Shown one piece after another: positions 31,188-51,212 of a stretch of 64,000 bases of DNA. How positions within the stretch are numbered: the stretch's first letter is position 1; every line of letters starts with the position of its first letter. The translations under genes were made by a program, and so were the position numbers. The stretch comes from Arabidopsis thaliana (Eukaryota; Streptophyta; Magnoliopsida; Brassicales; Brassicaceae). Where the stretch lies: positions 20,157,261-20,221,260 of the forward strand of contig NC_003074.8 in assembly GCF_000001735.4 (NCBI RefSeq), in the 5' to 3' direction. The notes beneath the pieces are model-generated. The model ran no database searches. It was not told where the DNA came from and was given only the letters and a program-made list of their open reading frames with translations.

Positions 31188-31195
31188 GAAAGGAC
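31188..31195. repeat. Target site duplication, left copy
   Basis: GAAAGGAC immediately before the left end TAGAAATGTT. It pairs with GACAGGAC at 32170-32177 (7 of 8 identical). An 8-bp duplication is the hallmark of hAT elements. Confidence 0.75.
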
Positions 31196-32169
31196 TAGAA
31201 ATGTTAATGATGGGTTAAAACCCACTCGGTACCCAAAACCCACATAAAATTTTAAGCCCATAGATCTATTTTTTCTGGAAAAAAAAACATAGGTTTAAAA
31301 TGGGCTGGGTACCCAAATAAATAAAACCCATATGGGTTTACCTCATTGGGTAATGGGTACCCACGGGTTTTTTTCAGTCCTTTTTCAGGTGAATCAACAT
31401 TTTCTCGTCAAAAAAGATTTCACATTTTTCCGTCAAAACCGCGATTTAACATTTACCGCCAAAAAAGACATTCAATATTTTCCCGCTAAAAAAGACATTC
31501 AACATTTTTCCGCCAAAAACGACAATCAACATTTTCCCGCCAAAACGCAATTCAACATTTTCCCGCCAAAAACGACATTCAATATTTTCCCGCCAAAACG
31601 CAATTCAACATTTTCCCGCCAAAAACGACATTCAATATTTTCCCGCCAAAACGCAATTCAACATTTTTCCGCCAAAAACGCGATTCAACATTTTCCACCA
31701 AAAATAATTTCACTTTTCCCGCTAAAAACGCAATTTAACATTTTCCCGCCAAAAACGGCATTCAACATTTTCCCGCCAAAAAGGATTTCACATTTTCCGG
31801 TCAAAAACGCAATTCAACATTTTTCCGCCAAAAACGCGATTCAACATTTTTCCGCTAAAAACACAATTCAACCTTTTTCCCATCAAATATATATGTAATA
31901 CAGAAAATAAATATAATTTAAAATATATTTATAAGCAAATTATAGATACAACATACATATAATAGTATATTAGCAGTTAAAATAAACTCTAAGAAAATGA
32001 CAAAAACCAAGTTGGGTACCCACGGGTAGTCTCAGAACAATCAGGTTTTTTCGGGCTTTACCCACTAAATCAAAAACCCATCTGGGTTTTGTAAAGTTGG
32101 GTTTTTGGTGGGCGGATTTATTTTGGGTTCAGGTCGGGCTGGGCTTTTTTACCCACCACAACATCTCTA
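31196..32169. mobile_element. Non-autonomous hAT-type transposon (974 bp)
   Basis: The left end TAGAAATGTT and the inverted right end TAGAGATGTT form short terminal inverted repeats, followed on both sides by GGTGGGT-like and CCCA-rich subterminal sequence. Flanking 8-bp duplications (31188-31195 and 32170-32177) match at 7 of 8 positions. GGGTACCCA occurs at 31308-31316, 31355-31363 and 32024-32032, with a partial copy at 31229. No transposase is encoded, and half of the element is a minisatellite. TIR pattern and duplication length fit the hAT superfamily. It sits 964 bp upstream of the ABCF4 start codon. Confidence 0.8.
31391..31890 (+). repeat. About 19-unit minisatellite with E2F-type sites
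   Basis: About 19 tandem units of roughly 26 bp inside the hAT element, with core ATTCAACATTTTCCCGCCAA. Nine units contain TTTCCCGC, which fits the E2F/DP consensus TTTSSCGC. Others carry one-base variants (TTTTCCGCC, TTTCTCGTC, TTTTCCACC). The array keeps a frame open at 31332-31898, but this is a by-product of the repeat and not treated as a gene. Confidence 0.85.
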
Positions 32170-32177
32170 GACAGGAC
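32170..32177. repeat. Target site duplication, right copy
   Basis: GACAGGAC directly after the right end of the hAT element. One mismatch from the left copy suggests the insertion is not very recent. Confidence 0.75.
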
Positions 32178-33132: not shown

Positions 33133-35304
33133 ATGGGTAAGAAGAAGTCAGACGAGAGTGCTGCTACCACAAAGGTGAAGCCAAGTGGGAAAGATGCTTC
33201 GAAAGATTCTAAAAAAGAGAAATTGTCAGTCTCGGCTATGCTTGCAGGCATGGATCAGAAAGATGATAAACCGAAGAAGGGCTCATCATCTAGAACCAAG
33301 GCTGCTCCGAAATCTACATCTTACACTGATGGCATAGATCTTCCTCCTTCTGATGAAGAAGACGACGGTGAATCTGATGAGGAAGAGAGACAGAAGGAAG
33401 CAAGGAGGAAGCTGAAGAGTGAACAAAGGCACCTTGAGATATCTGTGACTGATAAGGAACAAAAGAAGCGAGAGGCGAAAGAAAGATTAGCTCTTCAGGC
33501 TGCAGAGTCGGCAAAGAGGGAGGCTATGAAGGACGATCATGATGCATTCACGGTTGTTATTGGAAGCAAGACCTCAGTGCTTGAAGGAGACGACATGGCT
33601 GATGCAAATGTTAAGGATATTACCATAGAATCTTTTTCTGTATCTGCTCGAGGTAAAGAGCTTTTGAAGAATGCTTCTGTCAGGATTTCACATGGTAAAA
33701 GGTATGGGTTGATCGGGCCAAACGGAATGGGAAAGTCTACACTGTTAAAGCTTTTAGCTTGGAGGAAGATTCCAGTGCCAAAGAATATTGATGTTCTTCT
33801 TGTTGAGCAAGAGGTGGTTGGTGATGAAAAGAGTGCTCTGAATGCAGTTGTCTCTGCCAATGAAGAGTTGGTTAAGCTACGGGAAGAGGCTGAAGCTCTG
33901 CAGAAGTCGTCTTCTGGAGCTGATGGAGAAAATGTTGATGGTGAGGATGATGATGATACTGGAGAAAAGCTTGCTGAACTGTATGACAGGCTGCAGATTT
34001 TAGGGTCAGATGCTGCTGAAGCACAGGCATCCAAAATTCTTGCGGGGTTAGGTTTCACAAAAGATATGCAAGTGCGTGCGACTCAGTCCTTCAGTGGTGG
34101 CTGGAGGATGCGAATATCATTAGCTAGAGCTCTGTTCGTGCAACCTACCCTTTTGCTGTTAGATGAACCCACTAACCATCTTGACCTGAGAGCTGTTCTA
34201 TGGTTAGAGGAGTATTTGTGTCGCTGGAAGAAGACACTAGTTGTTGTTTCACATGACCGGGACTTCCTCAACACAGTCTGCACGGAGATAATACATCTCC
34301 ATGACCAAAATCTCCACTTCTACCGTGGTAATTTCGATGGTTTTGAAAGCGGATATGAGCAGCGTCGCAAGGAGATGAACAAAAAATTTGATGTCTACGA
34401 CAAACAGATGAAAGCAGCGAAGAGGACTGGAAACCGGGGTCAACAGGAGAAGGTAAAGGACAGGGCCAAGTTTACTGCTGCAAAAGAAGCATCCAAGAGT
34501 AAGTCAAAGGGCAAGACAGTGGATGAAGAAGGCCCAGCACCAGAAGCTCCAAGGAAGTGGAGAGATTACAGTGTGGTGTTCCACTTCCCAGAACCAACTG
34601 AGCTCACTCCTCCTCTTCTGCAGTTAATTGAGGTTAGCTTCAGCTATCCCAACAGGCCAGATTTCAGACTCTCGAATGTTGATGTAGGTATCGATATGGG
34701 GACACGGGTTGCGATAGTTGGGCCTAACGGAGCAGGAAAGTCCACTCTATTAAATCTTCTTGCGGGAGATTTAGTTCCAACAGAGGGTGAAATGAGAAGA
34801 AGCCAGAAGCTGAGGATTGGCAGGTATTCTCAGCATTTTGTTGACCTTTTAACAATGGGGGAAACACCGGTTCAGTATCTCCTTCGTCTTCATCCTGACC
34901 AAGAGGGATTTAGCAAGCAAGAGGCAGTGCGAGCGAAGCTAGGCAAGTTTGGGCTACCAAGTCACAATCACTTATCTCCAATTGCGAAATTGTCTGGAGG
35001 ACAAAAGGCTAGGGTTGTGTTCACCTCGATCTCAATGTCAAAACCACACATTTTGCTTCTGGACGAGCCTACAAATCACTTAGACATGCAGAGTATAGAT
35101 GCCTTGGCGGATGCACTAGATGAGTTCACAGGTGGAGTTGTGTTGGTGAGTCACGACTCGAGACTCATATCACGTGTATGTGCGGAAGAGGAGAAGAGTC
35201 AAATTTGGGTTGTAGAAGACGGAACAGTGAATTTCTTCCCAGGCACATTTGAAGAGTACAAAGAAGATCTCCAAAGAGAAATCAAAGCAGAAGTTGATGA
35301 GTGA
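33133..35304 (+). CDS. ABCF4: ABC transporter F family member 4 / GCN4 (soluble twin-ATPase)
   Basis: Single-exon CDS of 723 residues. ABCF proteins have no membrane segments and act in translation or its control, like yeast GCN20/ARB1. Arabidopsis GCN4 is also reported to affect stomatal immunity via 14-3-3/RIN4. The N-terminal 130 residues are Lys/Glu-rich and charged. ATPase 1: Walker A GPNGMGKST near 195, signature SFSGGW near 319, Walker B LLLLDEPTNHLD near 340. ATPase 2: Walker A GPNGAGKST near 530, signature LSGGQKAR near 619, Walker B HILLLDEPTNHLD near 640. All catalytic motifs are intact. The 5'UTR probably contains an intron: a donor CTAG/GTGAGT near 32634 and an acceptor ATGTCAG at 33120, 12 nt before the ATG. 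Confidence 0.96.
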   Translation: MGKKKSDESAATTKVKPSGKDASKDSKKEKLSVSAMLAGMDQKDDKPKKGSSSRTKAAPKSTSYTDGIDLPPSDEEDDGESDEEERQKEARRKLKSEQRHLEISVTDKEQKKREAKERLALQAAESAKREAMKDDHDAFTVVIGSKTSVLEGDDMADANVKDITIESFSVSARGKELLKNASVRISHGKRYGLIGPNGMGKSTLLKLLAWRKIPVPKNIDVLLVEQEVVGDEKSALNAVVSANEELVKLREEAEALQKSSSGADGENVDGEDDDDTGEKLAELYDRLQILGSDAAEAQASKILAGLGFTKDMQVRATQSFSGGWRMRISLARALFVQPTLLLLDEPTNHLDLRAVLWLEEYLCRWKKTLVVVSHDRDFLNTVCTEIIHLHDQNLHFYRGNFDGFESGYEQRRKEMNKKFDVYDKQMKAAKRTGNRGQQEKVKDRAKFTAAKEASKSKSKGKTVDEEGPAPEAPRKWRDYSVVFHFPEPTELTPPLLQLIEVSFSYPNRPDFRLSNVDVGIDMGTRVAIVGPNGAGKSTLLNLLAGDLVPTEGEMRRSQKLRIGRYSQHFVDLLTMGETPVQYLLRLHPDQEGFSKQEAVRAKLGKFGLPSHNHLSPIAKLSGGQKARVVFTSISMSKPHILLLDEPTNHLDMQSIDALADALDEFTGGVVLVSHDSRLISRVCAEEEKSQIWVVEDGTVNFFPGTFEEYKEDLQREIKAEVDE

Positions 35305-43666: not shown

Positions 43667-46540
43667 TTAGTACTCAGTTTTTGGAGAAGGTGAATACGAA
43701 GGTGGAGGTGGGGATTTGTAAACATATGGTGGTGGGGGAGATTTGTATTCAACCTTTGGAGAAGGAGAATAATAAGGTGGTGGTGGGGAACTGTAGACAT
43801 ATGGTGGTGGAGGAGACTTGTAGTCTACCACAGGAGAAGGTGAGTAATATGGAGGTGGTGGAGAACTGTAGACATACGGTGGTGGAGGAGACTTGTAGTC
43901 TACCTTAGGGGAAGGTGAATAATATGGTGGTGGTGGTGAACTGTAGACATATGGTGGTGGAGGAGATTTGTAGTCAACCTTAGGGGAAGGTGAGTAGTAT
44001 GGTGGTGGAGGAGAACTGTAAACATACGGTGGTGGGGGAGACTTGTATTCTACCTTAGGAGAGGGTGAATAGTATGGTGGTGGTGGGGAGCTGTAGACGT
44101 ATGGTGGTGGAGGAGATTTGTAGTGAACCTTAGGAGAAGGTGAGTAATATGGAGGTGGTGGAGAACTGTAGACATATGGTGGTGGAGGAGACTTGTAATG
44201 TACCTTAGGAGTAGGTGCGTAGTATGGTGGTGGAGGAGATTTGTAGTGCACCTTAGGGGAAGGTGAGTAATATGGTGGGGGTGGAGAACTGTAAACATAT
44301 GGTGGTGGGGGTGACTTGTAATATACCTTAGGGGAAGGTGAGTAGTGTGGTGGTGGTGGAGAACTGTAGACATATGGTGGTGGAGGAGACTTGTACACAA
44401 CCTTGGGGGATGGAGAATAACATGGAGGAGGTGGTGGACAAACACAAACATGAGGATGTGGTGGAGACTTGTAGTACACCTTAGGTGAAGGCGAGTAGTA
44501 TGGAGGTGGTGGGGAGCTGTAGACATACGGTGGTGGTGGAGACTTGTAGTACACTTTAGGTGAAGGAGAGTAGTATGGTGGTGGGGGAGAACTGTAGACG
44601 TAAGGTGGTGGTGGAGATTTGTAGTACACCTTAGGAGATGGTGAATAGTATGGTGGTGGGGGAGAACTGTAAACGTATGGTGGTGGTGGGGATTTGTATT
44701 GCACCTTGGGCGAAGGTGAGTGGTATGGTGGTGGTGGAGAGCTGTAGACGTACGGTGGTGGTGGAGATTTGTAGTAAACCTTAGGCGAAGGTGAGTAGTA
44801 TGGTGGTGGTGGGGAGCTGTAAACGTACGGTGGTGGAGGAGACTTGTAGTACACCTTAGGAGAAGGTGAATAGTATGGTGGTGGTGGAGATTTGTAGTAA
44901 ACCTTAGGCGAAGGTGAGTAGTATGGTGGTGGTGGGGAGCTGTAAACGTACGGTGGTGGAGGAGACTTGTAGTACACTTTAGGAGAAGGTGAATAGTATG
45001 GTGGTGGTGGAGAACTGTAGACGTAAGGTGGTGGTGGGGACTTGTAGTACACCTTAGGAGAAGGTGAGTAGTATGGTGGTGGTGGAGAGCTGTAGACGTA
45101 CGGGGGTGGAGGAGACTTGTAATCAACCTTTGGGGATGGAGAGTATGTTGGTGGTGGTGGAGAGCTGTAGACGTACGGTGGTGGAGGAGACTTGTACTCT
45201 ACCTTTGGGGACGGTGAGTAGTATGGTGGTGGTGGAGAGCTGTAGACGTACGGGGGTGGAGGAGACTTGTACTCAACCTTAGGAGATGGGGAGTAGGTTG
45301 GTGGTGGTGGGGAGCTGTAGACGTACGGTGGTGGAGGAGATTTGTATTCAACCTTTGGGGATGGGGAATAGGTTGGTGGTGGTGGAGAGCTGTAGACGTA
45401 CGGTGGTGGAGGAGATTTGTACTCAACCTTTGGGGATGGAGAGTAGGTTGGCGGTGGTGGGGAGCTGTAGACATAGGGTGGTGGAGGAGATTTGTACTCA
45501 ACCTTTGGGGATGGAGAGTAGGTTGGCGGTGGTGGGGAGCTGTAAACATAGGGTGGTGGAGGAGATTTGTAGTCAACCTTTGGAGATGGTGAGTAGTATG
45601 GAGGTGGTGGGGAGCTGTAGACGTACGGTGGTGGAGGAGACTTGTAATCAACCTTTGGGGATGGAGAGTATGTTGGTGGTGGTGGAGAGCTGTAGACGTA
45701 CGGTGGTGGAGGAGACTTGTACTCTACCTTTGGGGACGGTGAGTAGTATGGTGGTGGTGGAGAGCTGTAGACGTACGGGGGTGGAGGAGACTTGTAATCA
45801 ACCTTTGGGGATGGAGAGTATGTTGGTGGTGGTGGAGAGCTGTAGACGTACGGTGGTGGAGGAGACTTGTACTCTACCTTTGGGGACGGTGAGTAGTATG
45901 GTGGTGGTGGAGAGCTGTAGACGTACGGGGGTGGAGGAGACTTGTACTCAACCTTAGGAGATGGGGAGTAGGTTGGTGGTGGTGGGGAGCTGTAGACGTA
46001 CGGTGGTGGAGGAGATTTGTATTCAACCTTTGGGGATGGGGAATAGGTTGGTGGTGGTGGGGAGCTGTACACGTACGGTGGTGGAGGAGATTTGTACTCA
46101 ACCTTTGGGGATGGAGAGTAGGTTGGCGGTGGTGGGGAGCTGTAAACATAGGGTGGTGGAGGAGATTTGTACTCAACCTTTGGGGATGGAGAGTAGGTTG
46201 GTGGTGGTGGGGAGCTGTAGACATACGGTGGTGGAGGAGATTTGTACTCAACCTTTGGGGATGGAGAGTAGGTCGGTGGTGGTGGTGAGCTGTAAACATA
46301 TGGTGGTGGAGGAGATTTGTATTCTACTTCAGGAGCCGGTGAGTAAGTTGGTGGTGGGGAACTGTCGATGTATGGTAGTGGGGGAGTTTTGTATTCAATC
46401 TTAGGAAGCGGTGAGGAATACAGTGGTGGTGGAGAGCTATCTGTGTATGGATCATATGCAGCAACCATTGTTGCCATGATGACAACTCCTAGAGCGCAAA
46501 TGAGATGGGTTGAAGGCCCCATCATAGAAGAAGATCTCAT
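43667..46540 (-). CDS. EXT17: Extensin, highly repetitive (At3g54580)
   Basis: Intronless, 957 residues. Extensins are hydroxyproline-rich structural glycoproteins of the cell wall, cross-linked through tyrosines. A signal peptide (THLICALGVVIMATMVAAY) is followed by about 36 tandem 25-residue units of the form SPPPPYVYSSPPPPYYSPSP + KV(E/D/Y/H)YK. The SPPPP blocks are O-glycosylation sites, and YVY and YYSPSPK are cross-linking motifs. At DNA level the unit is 75 bp, with a 675-bp higher-order duplication (about 45071-45385 repeated at 45746-46060). One unit near 44410-44470 is aberrant and carries three cysteines (HPHVCVCPPPPPC). Start ATG 46540 lies 90 nt below a TATA box. The symbol is recalled and less certain than the family. 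Confidence 0.93.
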   Translation of the reverse strand: MRSSSMMGPSTHLICALGVVIMATMVAAYDPYTDSSPPPLYSSPLPKIEYKTPPLPYIDSSPPPTYSPAPEVEYKSPPPPYVYSSPPPPTYSPSPKVEYKSPPPPYVYSSPPPPTYSPSPKVEYKSPPPPYVYSSPPPPTYSPSPKVEYKSPPPPYVYSSPPPPTYSPSPKVEYKSPPPPYVYSSPPPPTYSPSPKVEYKSPPPPYVYSSPPPPYYSPSPKVEYKSPPPPYVYSSPPPPTYSPSPKVDYKSPPPPYVYSSPPPPYYSPSPKVEYKSPPPPYVYSSPPPPTYSPSPKVDYKSPPPPYVYSSPPPPYYSPSPKVDYKSPPPPYVYSSPPPPTYSPSPKVEYKSPPPPYVYSSPPPPTYSPSPKVEYKSPPPPYVYSSPPPPTYSPSPKVEYKSPPPPYVYSSPPPPTYSPSPKVEYKSPPPPYVYSSPPPPYYSPSPKVEYKSPPPPYVYSSPPPPTYSPSPKVDYKSPPPPYVYSSPPPPYYSPSPKVYYKSPPPPYVYSSPPPPYYSPSPKVYYKSPPPPYVYSSPPPPYYSPSPKVYYKSPPPPYYSPSPKVYYKSPPPPYVYSSPPPPYYSPSPKVYYKSPPPPYVYSSPPPPYHSPSPKVQYKSPPPPYVYSSPPPPYYSPSPKVYYKSPPPPYVYSSPPPPYYSPSPKVYYKSPPPPYVYSSPPPPYYSPSPKVYYKSPPHPHVCVCPPPPPCYSPSPKVVYKSPPPPYVYSSPPPPHYSPSPKVYYKSPPPPYVYSSPPPPYYSPSPKVHYKSPPPPYYAPTPKVHYKSPPPPYVYSSPPPPYYSPSPKVHYKSPPPPYVYSSPPPPYYSPSPKVEYKSPPPPYVYSSPPPPYYSPSPKVDYKSPPPPYVYSSPPPPYYSPSPKVDYKSPPPPYVYSSPPPPYYSPSPVVDYKSPPPPYVYSSPPPPYYSPSPKVEYKSPPPPYVYKSPPPPSYSPSPKTEY
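44416..44462 (-). other. Cysteine-bearing variant repeat in extensin 1
   Basis: Codes for PHPHVCVCPPPPPCYSPSP in place of the usual PPPPYVYSSPPPPYYSPSP. It is the only unit with cysteine in this protein; the sister extensin has the same unit. Confidence 0.85.
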
Positions 46541-48962: not shown

Positions 48963-51212
48963 ATGAGATCTTCTTCTAAGATGGGGCCTTCAGCCCATCT
49001 CATTTCCGCTCTAGGAGTTATCATCATGGCAACAATGGTTGCTGCATATGAGCCAGAAACATATGCCTCTCCGCCACCGTTGTATTCTTCACCGCTTCCT
49101 GAAGTTGAATACAAGACTCCTCCACTACCATACGTCGACAGTTCCCCACCACCAACTTACACACCAGCTCCTGAAGTGGAATACAAGTCTCCACCACCAC
49201 CATATGTCTATAGTTCTCCACCCCCACCAACATACTCCCCATCTCCAAAGGTTGACTACAAATCTCCTCCACCACCATACGTCTACAGTTCTCCACCACC
49301 ACCATATTACTCGCCTTCTCCTAAGGTCGACTACAAGTCTCCTCCACCACCATACGTCTACAACTCTCCACCACCACCATATTACTCGCCTTCCCCTAAG
49401 GTCGACTACAAGTCACCTCCACCACCATACGTCTACAGCTCCCCACCACCACCGTACTACTCTCCATCTCCTAAGGTTGAGTACAAATCTCCTCCTCCAC
49501 CGTACGTCTACAGTTCTCCACCACCACCATACTACTCACCATCCCCTAAGGTTGACTACAAGTCTCCTCCACCACCATACGTATACAGCTCCCCACCACC
49601 ACCATACTATTCTCCATCCCCTAAGGTTGAGTACAAATCTCCTCCTCCACCGTACGTTTACAGTTCTCCACCACCACCATACTACTCACCATCCCCTAAA
49701 GTTGACTACAAGTCTCCTCCACCACCATACGTCTACAGTTCCCCACCACCACCATACTATTCACCATCCCCTAAAGTAGACTACAAGTCTCCCCCACCAC
49801 CATACGTTTACAGCTCCCCACCACCACCATACTACTCACCATCCCCAAAGGTTGACTACAAGTCTCCTCCACCACCATACGTCTACAGCTCCCCACCACC
49901 ACCATACTACTCACCATCCCCAAAGGTTGACTACAAGTCTCCTCCACCACCATACGTCTACAGCTCCCCACCACCACCATACTACTCACCATCCCCAAAG
50001 GTTGACTACAAGTCTCCTCCACCACCATACGTTTACAGTTCCCCACCACCACCAACCTACTCTCCATCCCCAAAGGTTGACTACAAGTCTCCTCCACCAC
50101 CATACGTCTACAGCTCCCCACCACCACCATACTACTCACCATCCCCAAAGGTTGAGTACAAATCTCCTCCACCACCGTATGTCTACAGCTCCCCACCACC
50201 ACCAACCTACTCTCCATCCCCTAAGGTGTACTACAAGTCTCCACCACCACCATACGTATACAGTTCTCCACCACCACCATACTACTCACCATCCCCTAAG
50301 GTGTACTACAAGTCCCCACCACCACCTTACGTATACAGTTCTCCACCACCACCATACTACTCACCTTCTCCTAAGGTGTATTACAAGTCTCCACCACCAC
50401 CGTACGTGTACAGTTCTCCACCACCACCATACTACTCACCTTCTCCTAAGGTGTATTACAAGTCTCCACCACCACCATACGTCTACAGTTCTCCACCTCC
50501 ACCATATTACTCACCTTCCCCTAAGGTGTACTACAAATCCCCACCACCACCATACGTCTACAGCTCTCCACCTCCACCATATTACTCACCTTCCCCTAAG
50601 GTGCACTACAAATCCCCACCACCACCATACGTCTACAGCTCTCCACCTCCACCATATTACTCACCTTCCCCTAAGGTGCACTACAAATCCCCACCACCAC
50701 CATACGTCTACAACTCTCCACCACCACCATACTATTCACCATCTCCTAAGGTGTACTACAAATCTCCACCACCACCTTACGTCTACAGTTCTCCCCCACC
50801 ACCGTACTACTCTCCTTCACCTAAAGTGTACTACAAGTCTCCACCACCACCATATGTCTACAGCTCTCCACCACCACCATATTACTCCCCTTCCCCTAAG
50901 GTGTACTACAAGTCTCCACCACCACCTTATTACTCACCTTCCCCTAAGGTATACTACAAATCCCCACCACATCCTCATGTATGTGTTTGTCCACCACCAC
51001 CTCCATGTTATTCTCCATCCCCTAAGGTTGTGTACAAGTCTCCTCCACCACCATATGTCTACAATTCCCCACCACCACCATACTACTCACCTTCTCCAAA
51101 AGTTTACTACAAGTCTCCTCCACCACCATCTTATTATTCTCCCTCTCCAAAGGTTGAATACAAATCTCCACCTCCACCATCGTATTCACCTTCTCCAAAA
51201 ACTGAGTACTAA
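48963..51212 (+). CDS. HRGP1: Extensin / hydroxyproline-rich glycoprotein HRGP1 (At3g54590)
   Basis: Intronless, 749 residues. It has the same plan as the minus-strand extensin: near-identical signal peptide (MRSSSKMGPSAHLISALGVI), a spacer with TPPLPYVDSSPPPTYTPAPE, then about 28 units of SPPPPYVYSSPPPPYYSPSP with KVDYK, KVEYK, KVYYK or KVHYK. The kind of fourth residue changes in blocks: D/E early, Y/H late. The cysteine unit (HPHVCVCPPPPPC, about 50967-51017) and the terminal SYSPSPKTEY are conserved with the partner. It is a secreted cell-wall protein, probably hydroxylated, arabinosylated and cross-linked through Tyr. The two genes form an inverted duplicate. Confidence 0.93.
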   Translation: MRSSSKMGPSAHLISALGVIIMATMVAAYEPETYASPPPLYSSPLPEVEYKTPPLPYVDSSPPPTYTPAPEVEYKSPPPPYVYSSPPPPTYSPSPKVDYKSPPPPYVYSSPPPPYYSPSPKVDYKSPPPPYVYNSPPPPYYSPSPKVDYKSPPPPYVYSSPPPPYYSPSPKVEYKSPPPPYVYSSPPPPYYSPSPKVDYKSPPPPYVYSSPPPPYYSPSPKVEYKSPPPPYVYSSPPPPYYSPSPKVDYKSPPPPYVYSSPPPPYYSPSPKVDYKSPPPPYVYSSPPPPYYSPSPKVDYKSPPPPYVYSSPPPPYYSPSPKVDYKSPPPPYVYSSPPPPYYSPSPKVDYKSPPPPYVYSSPPPPTYSPSPKVDYKSPPPPYVYSSPPPPYYSPSPKVEYKSPPPPYVYSSPPPPTYSPSPKVYYKSPPPPYVYSSPPPPYYSPSPKVYYKSPPPPYVYSSPPPPYYSPSPKVYYKSPPPPYVYSSPPPPYYSPSPKVYYKSPPPPYVYSSPPPPYYSPSPKVYYKSPPPPYVYSSPPPPYYSPSPKVHYKSPPPPYVYSSPPPPYYSPSPKVHYKSPPPPYVYNSPPPPYYSPSPKVYYKSPPPPYVYSSPPPPYYSPSPKVYYKSPPPPYVYSSPPPPYYSPSPKVYYKSPPPPYYSPSPKVYYKSPPHPHVCVCPPPPPCYSPSPKVVYKSPPPPYVYNSPPPPYYSPSPKVYYKSPPPPSYYSPSPKVEYKSPPPPSYSPSPKTEY
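50967..51017 (+). other. Cysteine-bearing variant repeat in extensin 2
   Basis: Encodes PHPHVCVCPPPPPCYSPSP, the same substitution block as in extensin 1 and unique within this protein. Confidence 0.85.

Follow-up and report, generated by a model that had tools for sequence, protein, structure and literature searches.

A short element in the window (the whole 64-kb stretch of Arabidopsis thaliana DNA that was analysed, C3:20157261-20221260) is most likely a non-autonomous hAT passenger able to bind E2F, with a tandem array which was shaped while its family was mobile and which is now decaying upstream of an ABCF gene. We give this reading a probability of about 0.7. It proposes that a minisatellite of palindromic E2F/DP sites replaces the transposase gene of the relatives, and that the element would be moved by transposase from relatives with like ends, as the ends, the size of the target-site duplication (TSD) and the transposase remains suggest. 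The array would bind E2F, judging from its letters; binding in vivo has been published for the class. It would have grown, with its core kept, during the mobile life of the family, probably through copying of units and homogenisation, and E2F binding in dividing cells may possibly have helped the element. After insertion the array would decay much as the other parts of the element do. The features are collected in Table 1.

Table 1. Position in the window of the element, its parts and the gene downstream.
Feature	Position	Strand	Remarks
Non-autonomous hAT element, family A	31196..32169	+	19 array-bearing loci; relatives which carry transposase are alike in ends and TSD size
Left target-site duplication GAAAGGAC	31188..31195	.	
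Left terminal inverted repeat TAGAAATGTT	31196..31205	+	counterpart in other copies mostly TAGAGATGTT
Left subterminal part	31196..31390	+	with the right end, rich in AAACCC / GGGTAC words
Tandem array, 19 units of 24-27 bp, core TTTCCCGCCAAA	31393..31890	+	
Seven intact 12-bp palindromic E2F-consensus sites	31533..31780	.	starts 31533, 31559, 31586, 31612, 31639, 31742, 31769
Right end region	31890..32169	+	L002 counterpart (positions 734-975) 84-92% identical to L109-L112
Right terminal inverted repeat	32160..32169	-	reads TAGAGATGTT on the - strand
Right target-site duplication GACAGGAC	32170..32177	.	7 of 8 letters as in the left one
ABCF-type gene, open frame of 723 aa starting with M	33133..35301	+	two ABC_tran domains, weak ABC_tran_Xtn match

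The element starts with TAGAAATGTT and finishes with AACATCTCTA, the consensus of its terminal inverted repeats (TIRs) being TAGARATGTT. A hAT-type element with such ends, a duplication matching in seven of eight letters and no transposase had been described in the sequence-only reading; ends and duplication are indeed there, and we agree that the element holds no transposase. In its two ends taken together AAACCC occurs 8 times and GGGTAC 7 times, against means of 0.15 and 0.11 in 500 letter shuffles. Membership of hAT is indicated by the short TIRs, which are common to the dispersed family A copies, and by the family A ends, which are common to elements encoding hAT transposase. The element shares with non-autonomous hAT elements and hAT MITEs the short TIR, the 8-bp TSD and the lack of a transposase. 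MITEs typically have a size range against which about 1 kb counts as long, and at this size, with a minisatellite of 500 bp, the element is long for a typical hAT MITE. About 960 bp separate its end from the first M of the ABCF-type gene downstream, which we take to be ABCF4.

The genome of the window (119.7 Mb) was searched with the element. This gave at least 51 matches, and 40 of 177 candidates were scored, so that copies may be missed; the sample of family A is the 19 fetched loci with an array. Both ends and an 8-bp TSD with 0-2 mismatches were found in 15 of the 19 (no mismatch in nine loci, one in five including the element, two in one). The scan for end pairs discarded those with more than 2 TSD mismatches, and paired ends with a TSD were not found in the remaining four (L030, L034, L036, L037). 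The sequence-only reading had asked whether other copies conserve CCCGCC, and they do: each of the 19 copies has between 3 and 17 full palindromes, the element having 7 by direct search. From the majority sequence of the family the element differs at 52 of 972 positions (5.4%), the range over the 15 aligned copies being 3.5-7.7%; from L002, its best match among those scored, it differs at 40 of 972, 31 of these being transitions. Longer arrays are present in L032 (28 units) and L036 (29 units), which suggests growth or nesting of arrays within family A.

The array was placed by TRF at 31394-31877, with a period of 27 (18.4 copies) or 53 (9.2 copies). The units were delimited by a script which splits at the unit start, and the resulting 19 units of 24-27 bp in 31393-31890 confirm the earlier estimate of about 19 tandem units, nine of them with TTTCCCGC. 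This word is found nine times in the element, every time on the + strand, and twice more within the 64-kb window when both strands are counted. The palindrome is complete in 7 of the 19 units, where it reads TTTCCCGCCAAA and fits TTTSSCGSSAAA, which we take to be the E2F consensus. That E2F-consensus sites are present beyond chance, as had been proposed, is borne out by 1000 dinucleotide shuffles: TTTSSCGC has 9 occurrences in the element against a mean of 0.255 and a maximum of 3 (both strands), and TTTSSCGSSAAA has 14 strand-counts, that is 7 places, against a mean of 0.024 and a maximum of 2. The repeated core is thus the full 12-bp palindromic consensus and goes beyond the 8-bp half site. 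AAAACG-like words are also present in many units. We infer from the sequence that the array can bind E2F. Elsewhere in the window a 75-bp unit forms a pair of large arrays, at 43683-46438 and 49110-51200, which are oriented opposite to each other; the units are rich in CCACCACCACC and resemble coding repeats of extensin type.

The genome has 1811 places which fit the consensus TTTSSCGSSAAA and 49 which fit the reversed pattern, and the words TTTTCCCGCCAAAA and TTTTCCCGCCAAAAMCG occur at 1184 and 645 places, each against 0 when reversed. Among the 35 TTTSSCGSSAAA places listed up to C1:5,727,464, 25 fall in fetched repeat elements and all of these read TTTCCCGCCAAA, the other 10 being different words of the consensus. 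The 101 fetched loci hold 787 of the 1811 places, distributed as 150 in A (19 loci), 419 in B (44 loci), 196 in C (30 loci), 16 in type E (five loci), 3 in type F (two loci) and 3 in L043. Family B is a second hAT family with ends TAGGGGTGTCAAAATGG and a 28-bp unit which carries AAACCC; its TSDs are perfect in 6 of 19 loci if the ends may shift by as much as 2 bp. Family C has PIF/Harbinger-like ends, a 27-bp unit and 3-bp TSDs, TTA or CTA, read by eye. Both have the same palindrome as A between other spacers. A comparison by shuffling, for which spacer letters and variants were chosen by eye, relates the spacers of B and C (0.013 and 0.003) and shows no relation of A to B or to C (0.28-0.33).

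Some of the fetched loci deserve mention in their own right. L043 (about 375-1480 oriented) has, by eye, family B-like ends (TAGGGATGTCAAAATGG) and family A-like units (best matches 75-80%), and this hybrid suggests that arrays or ends have been exchanged between hAT families. L101, L102, L104, L105 and L106 form, among the matches listed, a further dispersed repeat in which TTTCCCGCCAAA sites stand in both orientations; between these sites L101 has TTTACAAGGATTTTAAAA-like repeats. L099 and L100, which are 96% identical over 764 bp, have a further type of spacer around the TTTCCCGCCAAA core.

Relatives of the element were found which have like ends and no array. In L109, L110 and L113 the left end reads TAGGGATGTTAATGA and the 8-bp TSDs are perfect. 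When compared to positions 734-975 of L002 the right ends are 91% (L109), 90% (L110), 92% (L111, of which the right end alone was found) and 84% (L112) identical, and that of L113 is 73% identical over the shorter stretch 815-975. Frames of L110 (E 1.5e-27) and L111 (E 6.4e-28) contain the hAT transposase domain PF05699, and genome matches of this domain also lie inside the ranges of L109 and L113; L112 gave a weak PF14372 match alone (21 bits, below the cut-off of 27). The frames of L109-L113 are partial, and an intact autonomous partner was not found among these loci. The consensus TTTSSCGSSAAA is absent from all six array-less loci (L109-L113 and L045). Since these relatives have like ends and remains of a transposase but lack the site, the array occupies, between like ends, the place of the transposase gene. 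L045 (C4:8141774-8142803) is array-less and about 1 kb long. Its ends resemble those of family A, its interior is different and in part GC-rich, and no 8-bp TSD is seen in the flanks (7 mismatches). L114 and L115 had been fetched for an end-like word, and gave a left-end match alone (L114) and nothing beyond 18 bp (L115).

When measured against the unit consensus the core varies less than the spacer in family A (8.3 vs 12.9%), in B (6.0 vs 9.7%) and in C (8.9 vs 13.2%). The exceptions are the non-CpG C/G letters of family C, where the core varies by 17.1% and the spacer by 13.0%, and the CpG letters of family B (11.9% in the core, 12.9% in the spacer, p 0.29). The paired Wilcoxon values are not taken as significance because the copies share inherited unit differences. 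It should be noted that unit-based counts of intact cores are too low in family A since shorter units put a gap in the A-tract; for the element they give 4 intact cores where direct search gives 7. Inherited and private changes were separated by an alignment of 15 of the 19 A loci and 40 of the 44 B loci, four loci of each family being dropped because they yielded no full-length element. The rates omit columns which are present in less than 70% of the copies or have a majority letter below 60%, and array columns fitting no unit position (5 in A, 1 in B) were set aside.

Between the units of the family A majority sequence there are 14 changes in 249 core positions and 34 in 304 spacer positions (Fisher p 0.02); split by letter this is 1/124 vs 15/204 for A/T (p 0.007) and 13/125 vs 19/100 for C/G (p 0.08). 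The private changes of family A are similar in core, spacer and ends at non-CpG C/G letters (35/936, 27/762 and 70/2215) and at CpG (13/458, 13/362 and 7/177), with no p under 0.4. In family B the core has 21/2322 private changes at C/G vs 12/1567 in the spacer (p 0.72), and at CpG the numbers are 20/1088 in the core and 27/2260 in the spacer. At C/G and CpG letters these private changes do not indicate that the host preserves the core in A, nor in B when core and spacer are compared. Two results point the other way: the A/T letters of the A core (6/1715) have fewer private changes than those of the spacer (35/2601, p 0.0006) and of the ends (36/4568, p 0.06), and the C/G letters of the B core have fewer than those of the B ends (109/6739, p 0.011). 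At A/T the B core has 16/3663, the spacer 39/5737 (p 0.17) and the ends 118/16150 (p 0.06). The low private change of A/T letters in the core could reflect weak constraint or an effect of aligning homopolymers. The sequence-only reading took the conservation of the core as an argument for selection or homogenisation. This argument stands for the differences between units of the family; it is not supported as a sign of selection on this copy. In family A the C/G and CpG private changes are alike in core, spacer and ends, and the A/T core is lower. As the core is spared between units and the C/G letters decay alike after insertion, we read the pattern as constraint or homogenisation in the mobile lineage followed by decay after insertion and not clearly as the work of the host; the A/T result leaves some room.

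Several other explanations of the array were weighed. A plain minisatellite which resembles E2F sites by chance, the alternative kept by the sequence-only reading, is scarcely credible. Tandem arrays are common and expansion of a unit multiplies any word, but letter-shuffled units of the three families contain the palindrome in 0, 1 and 0 of 20000 cases whereas all three families have it, and the reversed-pattern control gave 49 places to set against the 1811; on the strength of the shuffles and of the recurrence of the palindrome in several families this candidate was dropped. It is unlikely that the unit mainly binds transposase or another protein, the E2F match being secondary. hAT transposases bind short subterminal repeats, many units carry the AAAACG-like words, and the AAACCC of family B units is over-represented in the ends of the element too. 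However, the transposase-bearing relatives with like ends do without the array, and it is the E2F palindrome which is the best shared feature across families with different spacers, the PIF/Harbinger-like one included.

Two further explanations give the sites a use for the host. The array might be a working cis element, at which E2F/DP makes the expression of ABCF4 or a neighbour dependent on the cell cycle. The seven complete palindromes are placed some 1.35-1.6 kb before the start codon of the ABCF gene, and E2F-bearing MITEs close to genes in A. thaliana are mentioned in passages of a review (PMC12595863); but the divergence of the element is well within the range of the aligned copies and 7 intact sites is ordinary for family A, which makes this use very improbable, and our best reading is that any effect of the element on the gene is incidental and putative. 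A genome-wide sponge, in which the many sites in transposons titrate E2F and have been kept by the host for that purpose, is also quite doubtful. Dilution of E2F has been proposed in print (passages of PMC12595863 and PMC4110626) and the fetched loci with such elements hold a large share of the palindromes (787/1811), but at C/G and CpG the core has private changes as often as the spacer (A and B) and as the ends of A, so those letters show no sign of being preserved by the host; the A/T letters, and the B core compared to the B ends, run opposite to this. Titration of E2F without selection is possible. A more selfish explanation hypothesizes that E2F arrays are a transposon trait passed between families or gained by them, that E2F binding either opens the element or sets the time of its movement to S phase, and that the array, located where the relatives have their transposase gene, persists through selection acting on mobile copies and not through the host. 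We hold it tentatively, as a rather less than even possibility, because the palindrome is common to two hAT families and one of PIF/Harbinger-like type, L043 is a hybrid, and the spacers of B and C look related.

The kind of element is already known, and the present one is an unremarkable instance of what has been published. The amplification of E2F sites by transposons, to which the sequence-only reading had referred, is in print and includes A. thaliana; passages of three papers (PMC12595863, PMC4110626, PMC13317346) credit it, together with the binding of E2Fa, to Henaff et al. (2014, Plant J 77:852). According to passages of PMC12595863 the E2F motifs of Brassicaceae were amplified by transposons, chiefly MITEs of the hAT, PIF/Harbinger and MULE types but also by Helitrons; some 85% of the motifs are in transposons, and they can bind E2Fa. 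PMC4110626 states, in the part seen, that up to 85% of the Arabidopsis E2F-consensus sequences were amplified in transposons and that E2Fa binds in vivo by ChIP, at the level of the class; a passage of PMC13317346 has the motif captured likely early in Brassicaceae. The system of Henaff et al., known here through citing passages, likewise consists of hAT, PIF/Harbinger and other non-autonomous elements with E2F sites in A. thaliana, for which E2Fa binding was reported and effects on promoters and by dilution were proposed; compared to these passages the array-less relatives with transposase and the split of core and spacer decay come from the present analysis. A genome-wide study would presumably include this element. 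Among the titles found in the literature none is about it, but its annotated name was not among the queries, so it may still be in print. In the main text of an E2Fc ChIP-seq paper (PMC12915602) the stem 'transpos' has no match. The transposon-like element upstream of AtDRTS3 (PMC5464667) provides one A. thaliana example of an E2F-like site inside such an element near a gene; it concerns another gene and another element, and the part seen describes no array. A MITE of Porphyromonas gingivalis (PMC4596501) likewise has a tandem array inside a miniature element, but it belongs to an unrelated bacterium and no link to E2F is seen in the passages available.

For the hAT passenger with its E2F array two things may add to this literature: the arrangement of an array in place of a transposase gene, and the distinction between inherited and private change. 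Splitting inherited and private change in core and spacer is a simple test of use by the element against use by the host, and here the split points to the mobile phase of the element rather than to host use, with the A/T positions partly opposite. The element illustrates how the sites to which a central regulator of the cell cycle binds can be multiplied by a family of transposons.
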